NCBI GenBank assembly: GCA_025356475.1
Contig: JANXSX010000182.1
Coordinates: forward strand, 1 to 63,540
Reading direction: 5' to 3'
DNA: 63,540 nucleotides
Origin: Isosphaeraceae bacterium
GTDB lineage: Bacteria > Planctomycetota > Planctomycetia > Isosphaerales > Isosphaeraceae
In this document: positions 41,331 through 47,138 of the stretch, piece after piece
How positions within the stretch are numbered: the first letter of the stretch is position 1
Layout of the letters: each line of letters starts with the position of its first letter
Notes under the pieces: model-generated
Seen by the model: only the letters and a program-made list of their open reading frames with translations
Database searches by the model: none
Told to the model about the DNA's origin: nothing
Program-made: the position numbers and the translations under genes

Positions 41331-41635
41331 CGGATGGCCTCCAGCCGACAGGGGCTCTTAAACTTGTCAGAGGTCATCTTACCGCCCTGAGAGGGGCACG
41401 ACCAGGGAGCCCTCAAAATCGCGAACTCGCCCGAGCTGGATCTGGGGGCTACCCATGATTTCGAGGCATGATAAGGCCGGTCACGGAGGAGACGCACCAT
41501 ATCATTGTAAGTGGAGCCAGTTCGTTCTGAGCCCAAGGGCTCTGGCCTTCTCGGTCGGTCGCTTGACGCATACGATTCGAACCGGGACAATTTTAATATT
41601 GAGATTGGAACGTGCTTGACCAAGGACCTGCATCC
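41331..41635. other. Intergenic region between divergent genes
   Basis: The 305 bases separate the minus-strand secreted protein from the plus-strand M28 peptidase. TTTTAATATTGAGATTGG near 41591-41608 is AT-rich and could be part of the peptidase promoter. Open frames crossing the region on either strand lack support. Confidence 0.45.
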
Positions 41636-43531
41636 ATGATGACCTCCGACCCGAGAAGACTTCTCCGTCCACTCGGATTCATCCTCGTAATGAGCGCGGC
41701 CTCGGTCGCAGCCGAGAATTCTCCGGTTGTCTTGAACGCGAGCGGGAATCGGCTCAAAGCCGATGTTAGCTATCTGGCCGACGATGCTCGTGATGGGCGT
41801 GGCCCCGGCACCGCAGGCATCGAAGCGGCCGCCGACTATATTGCGACGACCTTCAAGGAAATCGGCCTCAAGCCGGCCGCCGGTGCTGAGGGCTTTTTTC
41901 AACAGTTCCAACTCCCCGGACCTGCCAAGCTAGGGGACAACCCCACCTTGAGCGTTGCAGGTTCGAAAGATCGGAACCTGAAGGCGGAACCCAAGTCCGA
42001 CTTCACCCCACTGGCGATCGGTTCCAGCGGTGATTTGAAGGACCTCCCAGTCGTCTTTGTTGGCTACGGAATTACAGCCAAGGATGACGAGACCAAACTC
42101 GACTACGACGACTATGCAGGTCTCGATGTCAAGGGTAAGGCCGTTCTGCTGATCCGCAAGACTCCCCAGCAGGCGAATAAGGATTCCAAGTTCTCAGGTC
42201 GGAACCTGAATCGGTTCGGGGCATTTCGACATAAGATCACTAATGCGTTCTCCCACGGAGCTGCCGCAGTCTTGATTGTGAACGATGCAGCCACCGTGAA
42301 GGGCCAGAAAGACGTTCCGCTCGGATTCACAATCGCTGGCAATGAACAGAATTCCAAGTTGCCATTTGTTTCCATCAGCCGGGCTTTCGCGGACTCGTTG
42401 CTTGATGTCGCCGGTGCCGCCAAACTTGCCGAACTCGAAGCCGAGATCGACACGGATGGAAAGCCTCACTCGAAGGATCTCGAAGGGCTGAAACTCTCAA
42501 CAACGGTTGAAGTCAAACGCGAGCAACAGACGACGAAGAATGTCATCGGGGTCCTGGAAGGGAGCGGCCCCTTGGCCGACGAGACCATCGTCATCGGTGG
42601 CCATTACGACCACCTGGGTAGGGGTGGGCTGATGTCGGGCTCGCTGGCCTTCTTGTCGCGTGACATCCACAACGGTGCGGATGATAACGCCTCGGGAACT
42701 TCGATGGTTCTTGAAATGGCCAGAAGGCTCGCTCGCCGAACGGATCCCCTCCCCCGTCGTGTGGTCTTCATGGCCTTCTCAGGCGAGGAGCGGGGCCTGC
42801 TCGGCTCGCAGCATTACTGCGACAATCCCCTCTACTCTCTCGATAAAACAGTGATGATGTTCAACTTTGACATGGTCGGTCGGTTGAACGACGAGGGTGA
42901 GTTGACGATCTTCGGAACCGGGTCGAGCCCCACGTTTGGAGCTCTCGCCGAGGCACTCGGGACCTCAGCCGGCTTCAAGATCAAACAGGTTGCGGGGATC
43001 AGCGATGGAATTGGTGGAAGTGATCATCAATCGTTCTATCAAAAGAACATCCCTGTACTCTTTGCGTTCACCGGAACTCACAAGGATTATCATCGACCTA
43101 GTGACGATACCCACTTGATCAACTTTGTAGGGATGTCGCGAATTGCCGACCTTGGCGAGATCCTGCTGCTCGACCTGATTCGTCGGCCGGAACGACCTTC
43201 CTTCACCAAACCTGTGCCGAAAGAGGGGAAGGCTTCAGCCGACCCTGGCCGGGCTGCGGTCTCAGTCTATTTCGGCTCGATCCCCAGCTACGATGATTCC
43301 GACAAGGGAGTCAAGCTCACCGGTGTTCGCGATGGTAGTCCCGCTGAGAAAGCAGGTCTGAAAGCAAATGATGTGATCATCAAGTTCGGTGACAAGACCA
43401 TCGGGACCATCTATGAGTACACCGAACAGCTCGGCAACTACAAGCCTGGTGATGTCGTCGATGTGGTTGTGAAGCGAGGCGATGCGGAAGTCACACTCAA
43501 AGTCACTTTGGCTCCGCGACCTGGCGGGTGA
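41636..43531 (+). CDS. M28-family metallopeptidase with PA and PDZ domains
   Basis: The 631-residue exported protein has a signal peptide (PLGFILVMSAASVAA). A PA-like insert (DYDDYAGLDVKGKAVLLIRK, AFSHGAAAVLIVND) is followed by the M28 zinc aminopeptidase core: VIGGHYDHLGRGG, HNGADDNASGTSMVLEMA, FSGEERGLLGSQHY (catalytic Glu pair), FNFDMVGRL and KDYHRPSDDTH. These supply the two-zinc His/Asp/Glu ligands. A C-terminal PDZ domain (about 545-628) has GVRDGSPAEKAGLKANDVII. It probably trims peptides in the periplasm. The frame starts at a GTG at 41612 but the ATG at 41636 has AAGGA upstream. A perfect hairpin follows. Confidence 0.93.
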   Translation: MMTSDPRRLLRPLGFILVMSAASVAAENSPVVLNASGNRLKADVSYLADDARDGRGPGTAGIEAAADYIATTFKEIGLKPAAGAEGFFQQFQLPGPAKLGDNPTLSVAGSKDRNLKAEPKSDFTPLAIGSSGDLKDLPVVFVGYGITAKDDETKLDYDDYAGLDVKGKAVLLIRKTPQQANKDSKFSGRNLNRFGAFRHKITNAFSHGAAAVLIVNDAATVKGQKDVPLGFTIAGNEQNSKLPFVSISRAFADSLLDVAGAAKLAELEAEIDTDGKPHSKDLEGLKLSTTVEVKREQQTTKNVIGVLEGSGPLADETIVIGGHYDHLGRGGLMSGSLAFLSRDIHNGADDNASGTSMVLEMARRLARRTDPLPRRVVFMAFSGEERGLLGSQHYCDNPLYSLDKTVMMFNFDMVGRLNDEGELTIFGTGSSPTFGALAEALGTSAGFKIKQVAGISDGIGGSDHQSFYQKNIPVLFAFTGTHKDYHRPSDDTHLINFVGMSRIADLGEILLLDLIRRPERPSFTKPVPKEGKASADPGRAAVSVYFGSIPSYDDSDKGVKLTGVRDGSPAEKAGLKANDVIIKFGDKTIGTIYEYTEQLGNYKPGDVVDVVVKRGDAEVTLKVTLAPRPGG

Positions 43532-43579
43532 TCAATGTTTGTGAGAACGGTCCGAGTTCCGCGAACCAGGATATTCCTT

Positions 43580-43608
43580 GGGGATGGCCACGAATCGAGG
43601 CCATCCCC
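43580..43608 (+). terminator. Perfect 10-bp hairpin after the M28 peptidase gene
   Basis: GGGGATGGCC and GGCCATCCCC pair perfectly around a 9-base loop, 49 bases after the peptidase stop. There is no T run, so this may be a terminator that needs another factor, or an mRNA end stabiliser before the ABC operon. Confidence 0.6.
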
Positions 43609-43651
43609 ACCTTCCGACAGAACGCGACCTTCCTTGTGCAATTCTACAGTC

Positions 43652-44518
43652 ATGTTCATGCTTATACTTGCTTTACTCATGAGCGGTTGCGCCCCTACGA
43701 GTCCTCATCTCACGATTTGTACGAACTGGGATCTCCAGGACCAACGTAAAGTCGAGGCGATGGCCGCAAGCGGTGGTTATCAGTTGCGTTGGGTGACTCT
43801 TGCCCCATGGTCTTCTCCTGCACAAGGCCCTGCCGGTTGTGATCTCTGGCTTCTGAAATCGCTCACACTTGAGCAAGCTTGCTTCCTTACAGCCAATCTC
43901 GATAAGAATCTTGAGTGGGCCACGACCTATGAATCTCTGGTGAGCCATGCCGGGGCGATCGAGGGCTCGGCGCGGTGGGGTGCGTACCTGAGTGACGGTC
44001 CCCAAAAGGGTTTGGCAATCTCGTTGCTCGACGACATCCGTGAGGAGTTTGGGCCAGGCCAGAATACGGGCCCACCGGGAGACAATTCCTGGATGAGTCT
44101 GCTCTCTGACCTGCTTGATTCTACGTTAGAACAAGCTCGCCCGGAACTTCGGGCTGCTGAACGGGTATTGCAGGACAATCCCCACGAGACGGCCAGACGA
44201 TGGTTGGTTGAGCCACCCCCCTGGCCTCCTGCTTCGATCAACAAACTCCACGCCAACGAATCAACTCACGACTTGGTCACGACCCTCGCAACAGAACTGG
44301 CCCCGGACCTCGAGTCTCGCCACTGGCTGCTCGCAAGCTGGGGGGGCGAGCCTCGCCCAATTGACCCGACACTCCTTAAAGAACTGGCAGGAGTTGCGGG
44401 TGGAAAGCTCATCCATGAACCACGCTTCCGCGCCTGGTTGCGGGTGGAGTGGACCAACTGGGCACGCCAGCGTTATCGACGGGTGGCGCGACTTGTGGCG
44501 CAAGGTGAAAGCCCATGA
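43652..44518 (+). CDS. Lipoprotein of an ABC-transporter-like operon (diverged binding protein)
   Basis: The 288-residue product has a lipobox (MFMLILALLMSGCAPTS, with Cys near residue 12), so it is lipid-anchored. The mature N-terminus, LTICTNWDLQDQRKVEAM followed by YQLRWVTLAPWSSPA, resembles the first strand-helix unit of iron or spermidine type solute-binding proteins, but the rest does not clearly match and is short for them. It overlaps the ATPase gene by 4 bases, and the ATPase overlaps the permease, so all three are one operon. It may bind a ligand or only couple to the transporter. The frame starts further back at 43535; the lipobox decides 43652. Confidence 0.72.
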   Translation: MFMLILALLMSGCAPTSPHLTICTNWDLQDQRKVEAMAASGGYQLRWVTLAPWSSPAQGPAGCDLWLLKSLTLEQACFLTANLDKNLEWATTYESLVSHAGAIEGSARWGAYLSDGPQKGLAISLLDDIREEFGPGQNTGPPGDNSWMSLLSDLLDSTLEQARPELRAAERVLQDNPHETARRWLVEPPPWPPASINKLHANESTHDLVTTLATELAPDLESRHWLLASWGGEPRPIDPTLLKELAGVAGGKLIHEPRFRAWLRVEWTNWARQRYRRVARLVAQGESP

Positions 44519-45621
44519 GCACCGTCAGCGTGATCAAGCTGGTCAAGCGATTCGATGGAATTGCGGTCGTTGATCTCGATGTCCCGCTCGACCTGCGATC
44601 CGGCGAGGTCCTGCACATTGTAGGCCCCTCAGGGGCGGGCAAAACGGTGCTCGCTCGGATGATTGCTGGTCTCCTGCCACTCGACGATGGCGAGATCTTC
44701 TTTGATGGCAAACTGATCAACAGTGATGCACCATTCGCTCGTAAAGTGGGCTTGATGTTGGCTGAGGATGGCCTTTGGCCGCACCTCACCGTCGCCGACA
44801 ATGTCGAGCTAGGACTCAAGGGGCGTGGGTTCGGGCGCAAAGAGCGTCGCGAAAAGGTCGAGCAGGCACTAGGATCGATGAAAATCGAGAGCCATGCAGA
44901 CCATCGCCCGGAACGATTATCACAAGCCCAGCAACGTCGGTGCGCATTCGCGCGTGCCCTGGTGATCGACCCAAATCTGCTGATTCTCGACGATCCGCTT
45001 GGAAAACTTGACGGCCCGAGTCGTGACGAGTTCCGTGAAGATCTGCGACGGGTGTTGAGTGAGGACCGCGTCACCACCCTCGTCTTGAGCGCGAATCCGC
45101 GCGACGCTTTGGCGATGGCCGAGCGGATGGCGGTCCTCGACCTTGGCCGGATCATCCAGGTGGGAACACCGCTTGATCTCTACAATCATCCCGGTAATGC
45201 GCTCGTCGCCCGTTTTCTAGGTGATGTCAACCTAATTCAAGGCCAGGTCGAAGGCCCTGGTGGTCGTGGCGAGATCGTCGTTCGTACTCCAATCGGGCGA
45301 TTGATCACGCAGGCGAACCTGGGAATGCTTGCGGCCGGCTCGCCCGTGACGCTGGCGATTCGACCTGAAGCACTCGCGATAGGGGCTCATGTCCCGATGG
45401 GTGCAAACCGATTTCCAGCGACGGTCGAGCGCCAAGTGTTTCTGGGCGAAGTACGCCAGATCCACCTCCGAGGACCTGCCGACTGGCCACTGCTGGCTCT
45501 CGCACTTCAGAGCCAGTCGGGGGGGCTTCGCGAAGGGCAGAGCCTCTCTGTCTCCATCCTCCCCGAGTTCATCATTGTCCTAGGAACTCGGCCCCAAATG
45601 GGTGAGCGCCTGCTCGCATGA
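44515..45621 (+). CDS. ABC transporter ATP-binding protein with degenerate catalytic motifs
   Basis: The 368-residue protein has the FbpC/PotA-type layout: nucleotide-binding domain (about 1-235) plus a C-terminal TOBE/MOP-like regulatory domain. Walker A is intact, GPSGAGKT at 37-44. The Q-loop Gln is Ala83 (MLAEDGLWPH), the signature reads LSQAQ (135-139) instead of LSGGQ, the catalytic Glu of Walker B is Asp160 (LLILDDP) and the H-loop His is Ala193 (LSANPRDAL). ATP binding is possible but normal hydrolysis is doubtful. It overlaps the lipoprotein (upstream) and the permease (downstream) by 4 bases each. Confidence 0.88.
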   Translation: MSTVSVIKLVKRFDGIAVVDLDVPLDLRSGEVLHIVGPSGAGKTVLARMIAGLLPLDDGEIFFDGKLINSDAPFARKVGLMLAEDGLWPHLTVADNVELGLKGRGFGRKERREKVEQALGSMKIESHADHRPERLSQAQQRRCAFARALVIDPNLLILDDPLGKLDGPSRDEFREDLRRVLSEDRVTTLVLSANPRDALAMAERMAVLDLGRIIQVGTPLDLYNHPGNALVARFLGDVNLIQGQVEGPGGRGEIVVRTPIGRLITQANLGMLAAGSPVTLAIRPEALAIGAHVPMGANRFPATVERQVFLGEVRQIHLRGPADWPLLALALQSQSGGLREGQSLSVSILPEFIIVLGTRPQMGERLLA

Positions 45622-47138
45622 ACCACCGTTTGAGAGAAACACCTGTACGTATCTTGTTCTTATCGGTTGTGCTCGCCTTGCTGGCGGGCTCGATCACTGA
45701 CCGAGGTGCGGATCAATCGCTTCGACTCACACTCTTTCCGCTGGCGTTGACCTGCTTTGACCCCCTTCTGTGGACCTGTGTTTGGGGAAGCCTGTTGGTG
45801 GCGGCACTGGCCGCCGCGTGTTCGCTGATTCTGGGTGTGGCGATCGCAATCAGCACTCAGAGTCGTTCGTATTGGGGTCGGCCAATCTTGGTCGTACTGA
45901 CGATCCTCCCGCTGGCGATCCCACCAGCAATCTCGGCTGGGGCTTGGAGGGTCTCAAACCTCTTCACACCATGGATCATCACCGACCTGGGTGGAGGTCT
46001 CGTGGATTTGACACCTTGGTTGATCTGGTTGATGGCGGCATCGATATGGGGATCGGCCTTGGTCGCGGCGTCCGCGAGTTCACGGCTGGCGCGCATTGAC
46101 AACGACTCTGTGGAACTGGCCCGTTCGCTCGGTCTCGGTCCATGGACTCGCTGGCGTGAGCTGGTCTGGCCGACGATCCGACCTGCAACGGCTCAAGCCG
46201 CGTCGATGGTCTTCAGCTTGGTCATCTTCGATCCAGGCCCACCTATTGTCCTTGGGCTGAAACGGACGCTCGCCTGGGAAACTCTTGCTTCCATGCAACG
46301 TGTTGGTGGCCTCCCTCGCGTCGCGACAATCTCCCTGGGTATGATTCTTGTCTGTACCATTGTGCATTTGATTGTCTTTCGGCCTGGCTGTGACCAGGTA
46401 CTCCTTAACAAACGCGCACGACGTAAGCCCCATCGGTCGCTCAGAGCGATCTTTGCCCTACCGCTCATGATCGTGATCTCGATGTGGTCGATCCTCTCAC
46501 TCACGGCGATCGCACTCCTTTGCGACCGTGTTATTCACATTGGTTGGAGGGCTCAAGAACTTATCGACATGCTCCGATTCGGCCTCACACAGCGAATCGT
46601 TTTCGGTACCGTGATCGGCCTTGTCTCGGTAATTGCAACGAGTCGGCTGCTGGGTCGAACTCATGGCAAGATACCCCCCGTGAGACGTCCAATGATTCCG
46701 CCACTGGCGATCGGGGTCGCGGTTGTACTGCTTAGCCAGTTCGTTGGCGATCTCTTCGGTCTGGTTCAGTCAACACGCTTGCCGACCGAGTGGACAGCCT
46801 GGCTCAGCCGATTCTCGCCGGATCTTGGGACTACGTTTTTTTTGGTTCTGACGGTCGCTTTAGCGAGCATCCCTTGGTTGTCGAGCAGGTCCGCTACCAG
46901 GACCAGACCGTTCGCTTACCCGATCCTCGTCGCATCGATCGGCGTGACCTGGGCGGCACCGACCATCGCCTTGCTGGACTTCACAAAGCTCACGACTCTG
47001 GGCGCTGACTTGTGCTTGACTTCGAACGATCCTGGCTGGTTCTGTCTACTATCCCTGCTGGCGATGGGACTCAACGTGATTCCGCTCGGAGCGTGCGCAC
47101 TCGACCGGCGATCGCATCTGGGCGATTGGATTGTCTGA
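45618..47138 (+). CDS. Two-domain ABC transporter permease (iron/thiamine type)
   Basis: The 506-residue membrane protein has about 12 hydrophobic segments, consistent with two fused permease domains as in FbpB or ThiP. In the first half the cytoplasmic EAA-type loop is visible: ARSLGLGPWTRWRELVWPTI. In the second half I do not see a comparable EAA loop (the corresponding stretch reads LASIPWLSSRSATRTRPFA). The gene follows the ATPase with a 4-base overlap and ends 8 bases before the convergent cdsA gene. With the degenerate ATPase and short lipoprotein, the whole transporter looks diverged; the substrate is unknown. Confidence 0.85.
   Translation: MNHRLRETPVRILFLSVVLALLAGSITDRGADQSLRLTLFPLALTCFDPLLWTCVWGSLLVAALAAACSLILGVAIAISTQSRSYWGRPILVVLTILPLAIPPAISAGAWRVSNLFTPWIITDLGGGLVDLTPWLIWLMAASIWGSALVAASASSRLARIDNDSVELARSLGLGPWTRWRELVWPTIRPATAQAASMVFSLVIFDPGPPIVLGLKRTLAWETLASMQRVGGLPRVATISLGMILVCTIVHLIVFRPGCDQVLLNKRARRKPHRSLRAIFALPLMIVISMWSILSLTAIALLCDRVIHIGWRAQELIDMLRFGLTQRIVFGTVIGLVSVIATSRLLGRTHGKIPPVRRPMIPPLAIGVAVVLLSQFVGDLFGLVQSTRLPTEWTAWLSRFSPDLGTTFFLVLTVALASIPWLSSRSATRTRPFAYPILVASIGVTWAAPTIALLDFTKLTTLGADLCLTSNDPGWFCLLSLLAMGLNVIPLGACALDRRSHLGDWIV

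Follow-up and report, generated by a model that had tools for sequence, protein, structure and literature searches.

Importers of the FbpABC, AfuABC and PhnS2T2U2 type are the closest described systems to the locus analysed here. They share with it the operon order, the predicted folds of the ATPase and of the binding protein, the Walker A motif, the Walker B aspartate, the TOBE domain and the first EAA loop of the permease. They differ in that, here, the ATPase signature, the Q-loop, the catalytic glutamate, the H-loop and the second EAA loop are eroded, the binding protein is reduced, and the lipoprotein carries a conserved C-terminal domain that is partly common to canonical planctomycete relatives. 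Degenerate ABC ATP sites as such are well known in heterodimers whose other site still works (TAP, TM287/288, Pdr5, CFTR), and the degenerate site of these transporters is likewise thought to hold unhydrolysed ATP. Its role is thought to be structural and mechanical, and in Pdr5 the signature reads LNVEQ and the glutamate and histidine are lost (PMC7756269). Such heterodimers nevertheless keep one consensus site, whereas the single ATPase gene of the present locus, acting as a homodimer, would make both sites degenerate; conversely, the Walker A lysine is kept here but lost in site 1 of Pdr5, and making that site canonical costs Pdr5 its in vivo function. FtsEX-EnvC and other ABC mechanotransmitters provide a further, proposed analogy, as ABC-type complexes that act on a periplasmic hydrolase and do not transport. 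In FtsEX, however, ATP is hydrolysed by FtsE and the permease, FtsX, is of type VII, while the locus described below is built on a type I importer scaffold. Our searches of a limited literature for ABC pseudo-ATPases, or for such a system in Planctomycetes, returned no earlier description.

The window (the whole stretch of DNA analysed, 63,540 nt) covers positions 1 to 63,540 of the forward strand of contig JANXSX010000182.1 of an Isosphaeraceae bacterium (GCA_025356475.1), and its features are given in Table 1. The ATG of the ATPase overlaps the stop codon of the lipoprotein gene (ATGA) and its own stop overlaps the ATG of the permease, so the tight operon reported in an earlier note on this DNA is borne out on both sides of the ATPase. 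The ATGA overlap is present in most orthologous loci, and the succession of M28 peptidase, lipoprotein, ATPase and permease is syntenic in nearly all genomes with enough flanking sequence.

Table 1. Features of the operon in the window.
Feature	Position	Strand	Evidence
First gene of the unit: secreted metallopeptidase of family M28, carrying PA and PDZ domains	41612..43531	+	Pfam Peptidase_M28 1.9e-43, PDZ_2, PA
Lipoprotein derived from an SBP_bac_6-type solute-binding protein, binding part shortened in the window	43535..44518	+	Likely start 43652, lipobox MSGC
Lipoprotein, conserved C-terminal helical domain (PPPWPPAS ... WLRxEWTxWARQRYRR)	44105..44503	+	Profile A2; homologous end in canonical relatives
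Degenerate MalK/FbpC-type ATPase subunit, NBD and regulatory TOBE domain, 368 aa	44515..45621	+	ORF, Pfam, model
Walker A GPSGAGKT, intact	44623..44646	+	Gly42 and Lys43 in 39/39 orthologues
Q-loop position, Ala83 in place of Gln	44761..44763	+	Gln in 18/39 orthologues, 38/38 canonical
Signature LSQAQ in place of LSGGQ	44917..44931	+	Both Gly in 0/39 orthologues, 38/38 canonical
Walker B, Asp159 kept, Asp160 replacing the catalytic Glu	44977..44994	+	Asp159 in 39/39; position 160 E 23, D 11, A 3, S 2
H-loop position, Ala193 in place of His	45091..45093	+	His in 3/39 orthologues, 38/38 canonical
Regulatory (TOBE) domain, unusually constrained in the degenerate family	45229..45582	+	Pfam TOBE_2; column entropy relative to the protein mean 1.00x, against 1.83x in CysA-type controls
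FbpB/PhnU2-like fused permease	45618..47138	+	BPD_transp_1 1.4e-05, first half only, slightly under the curated cut-off; full-length alignment with canonical permeases
Permease, first EAA (NBD-docking) loop, kept; second EAA loop missing	46107..46187	+	EAA1 Gly 27/27, Pro 26/27

The ATPase belongs to the ABC ATPase superfamily (PF00005, 100.3 bits against a cut-off of 25) and scores below the NCBIfam equivalog cut-offs of PhnT2 (242 of 457.7 bits) and PotA (212.1 of 355.6). Its AlphaFold2 model (pLDDT 91.7) shows a complete MalK-type fold, MalK being the closest solved structure (TM 0.89). Among the hallmarks of an active ABC ATPase, the Walker A motif and the Walker B aspartate are present, and LSGGQ, the Q-loop glutamine, the catalytic glutamate and the H-loop histidine are absent. 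The earlier note had read these features in the same way, and its residues hold one by one at the level of codons (K43 AAA, A83 GCT, S136 TCA, Q137 CAA, A138 GCC, Q139 CAG, D159 GAC, D160 GAT, A193 GCG); canonical controls have Q, G, G, E and H at positions 83, 137, 138, 160 and 193 in 38/38 cases. Its view of a transporter-derived complex that has kept the residues for ATP binding and lost those for turnover is supported. Its addition that all other features are kept was too strong, as the D-loop aspartate varies within the degenerate family, the window permease lacks its second EAA loop, and the window lipoprotein falls about 130 residues short of most orthologues, in the binding-protein part.

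Close protein matches (38-58% identity) are found in most genomes of the window's family, including Singulisphaera acidiphila, Singulisphaera sp. GP187, Paludisphaera soli and Tautonia sociabilis. We compared 39 orthologous ATPases with 38 aligned canonical ATPases. Gly42, Lys43, Asp159 and Pro161 are invariant in the orthologues, as are Trp88-Pro89 (39/39), which lie right after the Q-loop on the permease-facing side. Gln83 is found in 18 of them, Glu160 in 23 and His193 in 3, and none has an intact signature or both of its glycines. At least one of Q, E and H is missing in 37/39, and the signature and the histidine are lost together in 36/39. Orthologues with canonical Q, E and H, which according to the earlier note would have pointed to a single decaying gene, are thus essentially lacking: the two that keep all three residues, at the S. 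acidiphila locus L036 and at L107, have a broken signature (LTTLQ or LDDLQ). The H-loop position is occupied by S, R, D, Q, H, A, G, T or V, and since the 95% identical ATPases of L036 and L038 carry His and Gln there, drift at this position is recent. The conserved trait is therefore the loss of catalytic residues and no particular substitution; the idea that orthologues would share identical substitutions is false, loss being all that they have in common. One orthologue, L056 (genome G019), has a Pro/Ser-rich C-terminal extension that brings the protein to 464 aa.

Selection bears on whether this loss is functional. In the ATPase tree the 39 orthologues form one clade (100/100 support) with canonical relatives outside. 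Between close relatives, dN/dS (NG86) is 0.07-0.19 for the NBD, 0.25-0.44 for the lipoprotein and 0.27-0.57 for the permease, compared with 0.11-0.27 for CysA-type control pairs; one further control pair consisted of non-orthologues and is uninformative. Family-wide conservation and these ratios rule out a single decaying gene and support a functional loss, for which the earlier note had advised an alignment of orthologues. A slow pseudogenisation of a lost transporter throughout the family, with the window as its most advanced case, would fit the window being the most degenerate member, with four catalytic features gone, a shortened lipoprotein and no second EAA loop. Yet the operon is carried by 42/45 genomes, the ATPase frames are open, the NBD is under the purifying selection just described, and Lys43 and Asp159 are invariant over clade branch lengths that total roughly 14 substitutions per site (summed by hand). 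We consider this explanation highly improbable.

The distribution of constraint along the protein differs from that in control ATPases of the CysA type, taken from genomes of the window's family. With column entropy of each segment expressed relative to the protein mean, the segment from the signature to the H-loop stands at 1.08x in the degenerate family and at 0.22x in the CysA-type proteins, where no other part is as conserved. The regulatory domain, which varies most in the controls (1.83x), is here at the protein mean (1.00x). Positions 83, 137, 138 and 193 fall at about the 86th-88th percentile of column entropy. This inversion, together with the invariant Trp88-Pro89, suggests that catalysis has been released from constraint and that permease docking and the regulatory domain are still held. 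The same data bear on whether the locus encodes a working but slow or unconventional importer, with variant motifs that still support ATP turnover in the manner of compensated combinations of mutations. Two lethal changes in LptB, when combined, restore wild-type function (PMC6703430). Within LSxxQ, the orthologues retain Ser/Thr in 30/39 cases and the final Gln in 34/39; many keep Gln83 or Glu160, and the family permeases align end to end with canonical ones. On the other hand, the catalytic positions vary freely, even within the 95% identical pair, which argues against an alternative fixed chemistry, and the window has lost all four catalytic features, much of the binding protein and the second EAA loop. 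An importer of this kind appears unlikely to us.

The missing residues could alternatively be supplied by another ABC ATPase of the genome, the protein being half of a heterodimer as in TAP, TM287/288 or Pdr5. Unlinked, shared ATPases do exist for some importers (MsmX), and pairing the ATPase of L036 or L107, in which Q, E and H are retained, with a partner might in principle yield one consensus site. But a chain without signature, Glu and His cannot serve a consensus site on either face, and signature and His are both gone in 36/39 orthologues. The earlier note had advised looking for such a partner, and at the locus itself we found no conserved second ATPase; only L033 has another one, divergent and about 5-6 kb away. 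We regard a heterodimer as very unlikely.

The rest of the complex is eroded too. Type I importers have two EAA loops that dock two ATPases; the first is kept here. The window has a deletion of the second, which is also eroded across the family, its Gly being present in 26/27 permeases but its Pro mostly missing. The permease is homologous to FbpB-like permeases of the BPD_transp_1 family and is not of the FtsX type (type VII). The window lipoprotein has 288 aa (from 43652), against about 337-487 aa in most orthologues; no frameshift or missing start was seen, and the interval between the M28 and ATPase genes is itself short. A Pfam search with the window lipoprotein matched no family. The model of the S. 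acidiphila lipoprotein (pLDDT 86.6) consists of an SBP-like domain followed by a helical C-terminal domain, and the solved structures that resemble it most are those of P5PA, thiamin-binding, AfuA and FbpA-type proteins (TM about 0.5). The C-terminal domain contains near-invariant PPxWPPxS and WLRxEWTxW motifs, and a profile of it (A2) matches 42/45 genomes of the family, with two weak matches among the other sampled genomes of the phylum. A weak and short match to the lipoprotein profile in Thiothrix caldifontis (L096, 3377-3520, E 2e-5) is probably due to chance.

Canonical relatives indicate where the system came from. A search with the family profile gave a second class of matches (344-367 bits, with canonical paralogues scoring below 292) in three genomes, G357, G367 and G402, from a different family within the window's taxonomic class, and a weak lipoprotein match led to G249, from another family of the phylum (locus L100). 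The ATPases of these relatives carry Q, LSGGQ, Glu and His. At L111 and L112 the ATPase is flanked by a lipoprotein, of SBP_bac_6 type at L112, and by a permease with two EAA loops, and the L100 lipoprotein is directly upstream of its ATPase. The lipoproteins of L100, L101, L111 and L112 have a C-terminal end homologous to that of the degenerate family (e.g. DLFGCWIVDAHEELSAAW ... EWSEQARDRYRTIRQ), and profile-profile comparison of the family lipoprotein with the relatives' binding protein gives 99.1% probability (E 4e-19). The ATPase tree places these relatives as the sister group with only 82/85 support, and the shared lipoprotein domain is therefore the better argument for relatedness. Since other planctomycete families contain relatives that are fully canonical and have this lipoprotein extension, we take the canonical state as ancestral and the degenerate one as derived. 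These relatives provide a natural before-and-after comparison for a single-ATPase importer lineage that apparently lacks turnover in every member, with ATP-binding residues and strong selection kept, so that one may ask what ATP binding alone allows and which step of the cycle was the first that could be dispensed with.

Judging from sequences and predicted structures, we think it probable that an importer of the FbpABC/AfuABC type became an ATP-binding, probably non-hydrolysing membrane complex that is under selection and kept for another job. An importer with an SBP_bac_6 binding protein, a fused two-domain permease and a MalK-like ATPase would have lost ATP turnover in the ancestor of the Isosphaeraceae clade, the signature glycines being the first family-wide loss. 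We propose that the Q-loop, the catalytic glutamate and the H-loop were then free to drift, as no working signature was available in trans. Purifying selection would remain on nucleotide binding (Walker A, Walker B Asp), on docking to the first EAA loop and on the regulatory domain, and the ATPase would rest on the permease, its bound ATP being either structural or slow to exchange. The earlier note had suggested that ATP acts as a switch; a statically bound cofactor would fit equally well. H-loop mutants of HlyB, HisP and MalK keep <0.1 to <2% of ATPase activity (PMC6222333). Some members might hydrolyse ATP slowly, as Gln or Glu persists in about half of them and Q, E and H all persist in two. 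Nor is ATP binding certain for all members, since the A-loop aromatic residue is retained in just 26/39.

Through the conserved C-terminal domain of the lipoprotein, the complex may serve as a membrane anchor, sensor or regulator, plausibly for the co-encoded secreted M28 peptidase. The peptidase gene lies directly upstream of the lipoprotein gene, on the same strand, in 27 orthologous loci (with a 4-nt overlap in five), and by eye its apparent metal ligands seem intact. The neighbourhood of the canonical relative L111 lacks the peptidase, and no M28 match was found beside L056. From gene order, the peptidase is likely to be a functional partner of the operon; purA, uppS and cdsA also adjoin it in many genomes. 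The conserved coupling and the unusually constrained regulatory domain suggest a role in regulation or anchoring. Most tentatively, a complex with two dead ATP sites might control or anchor the peptidase in an ATP-bound, non-hydrolysing state through the lipoprotein domain and a ligand-responsive TOBE domain, turnover being unneeded; this we regard as conceivable, though rather doubtful. Three GenBank records titled Candidatus Kuenenia stuttgartiensis (L091, L092, L093) also contain the Isosphaeraceae operon, and their titles look wrong because the matching whole genomes group with the window's family.
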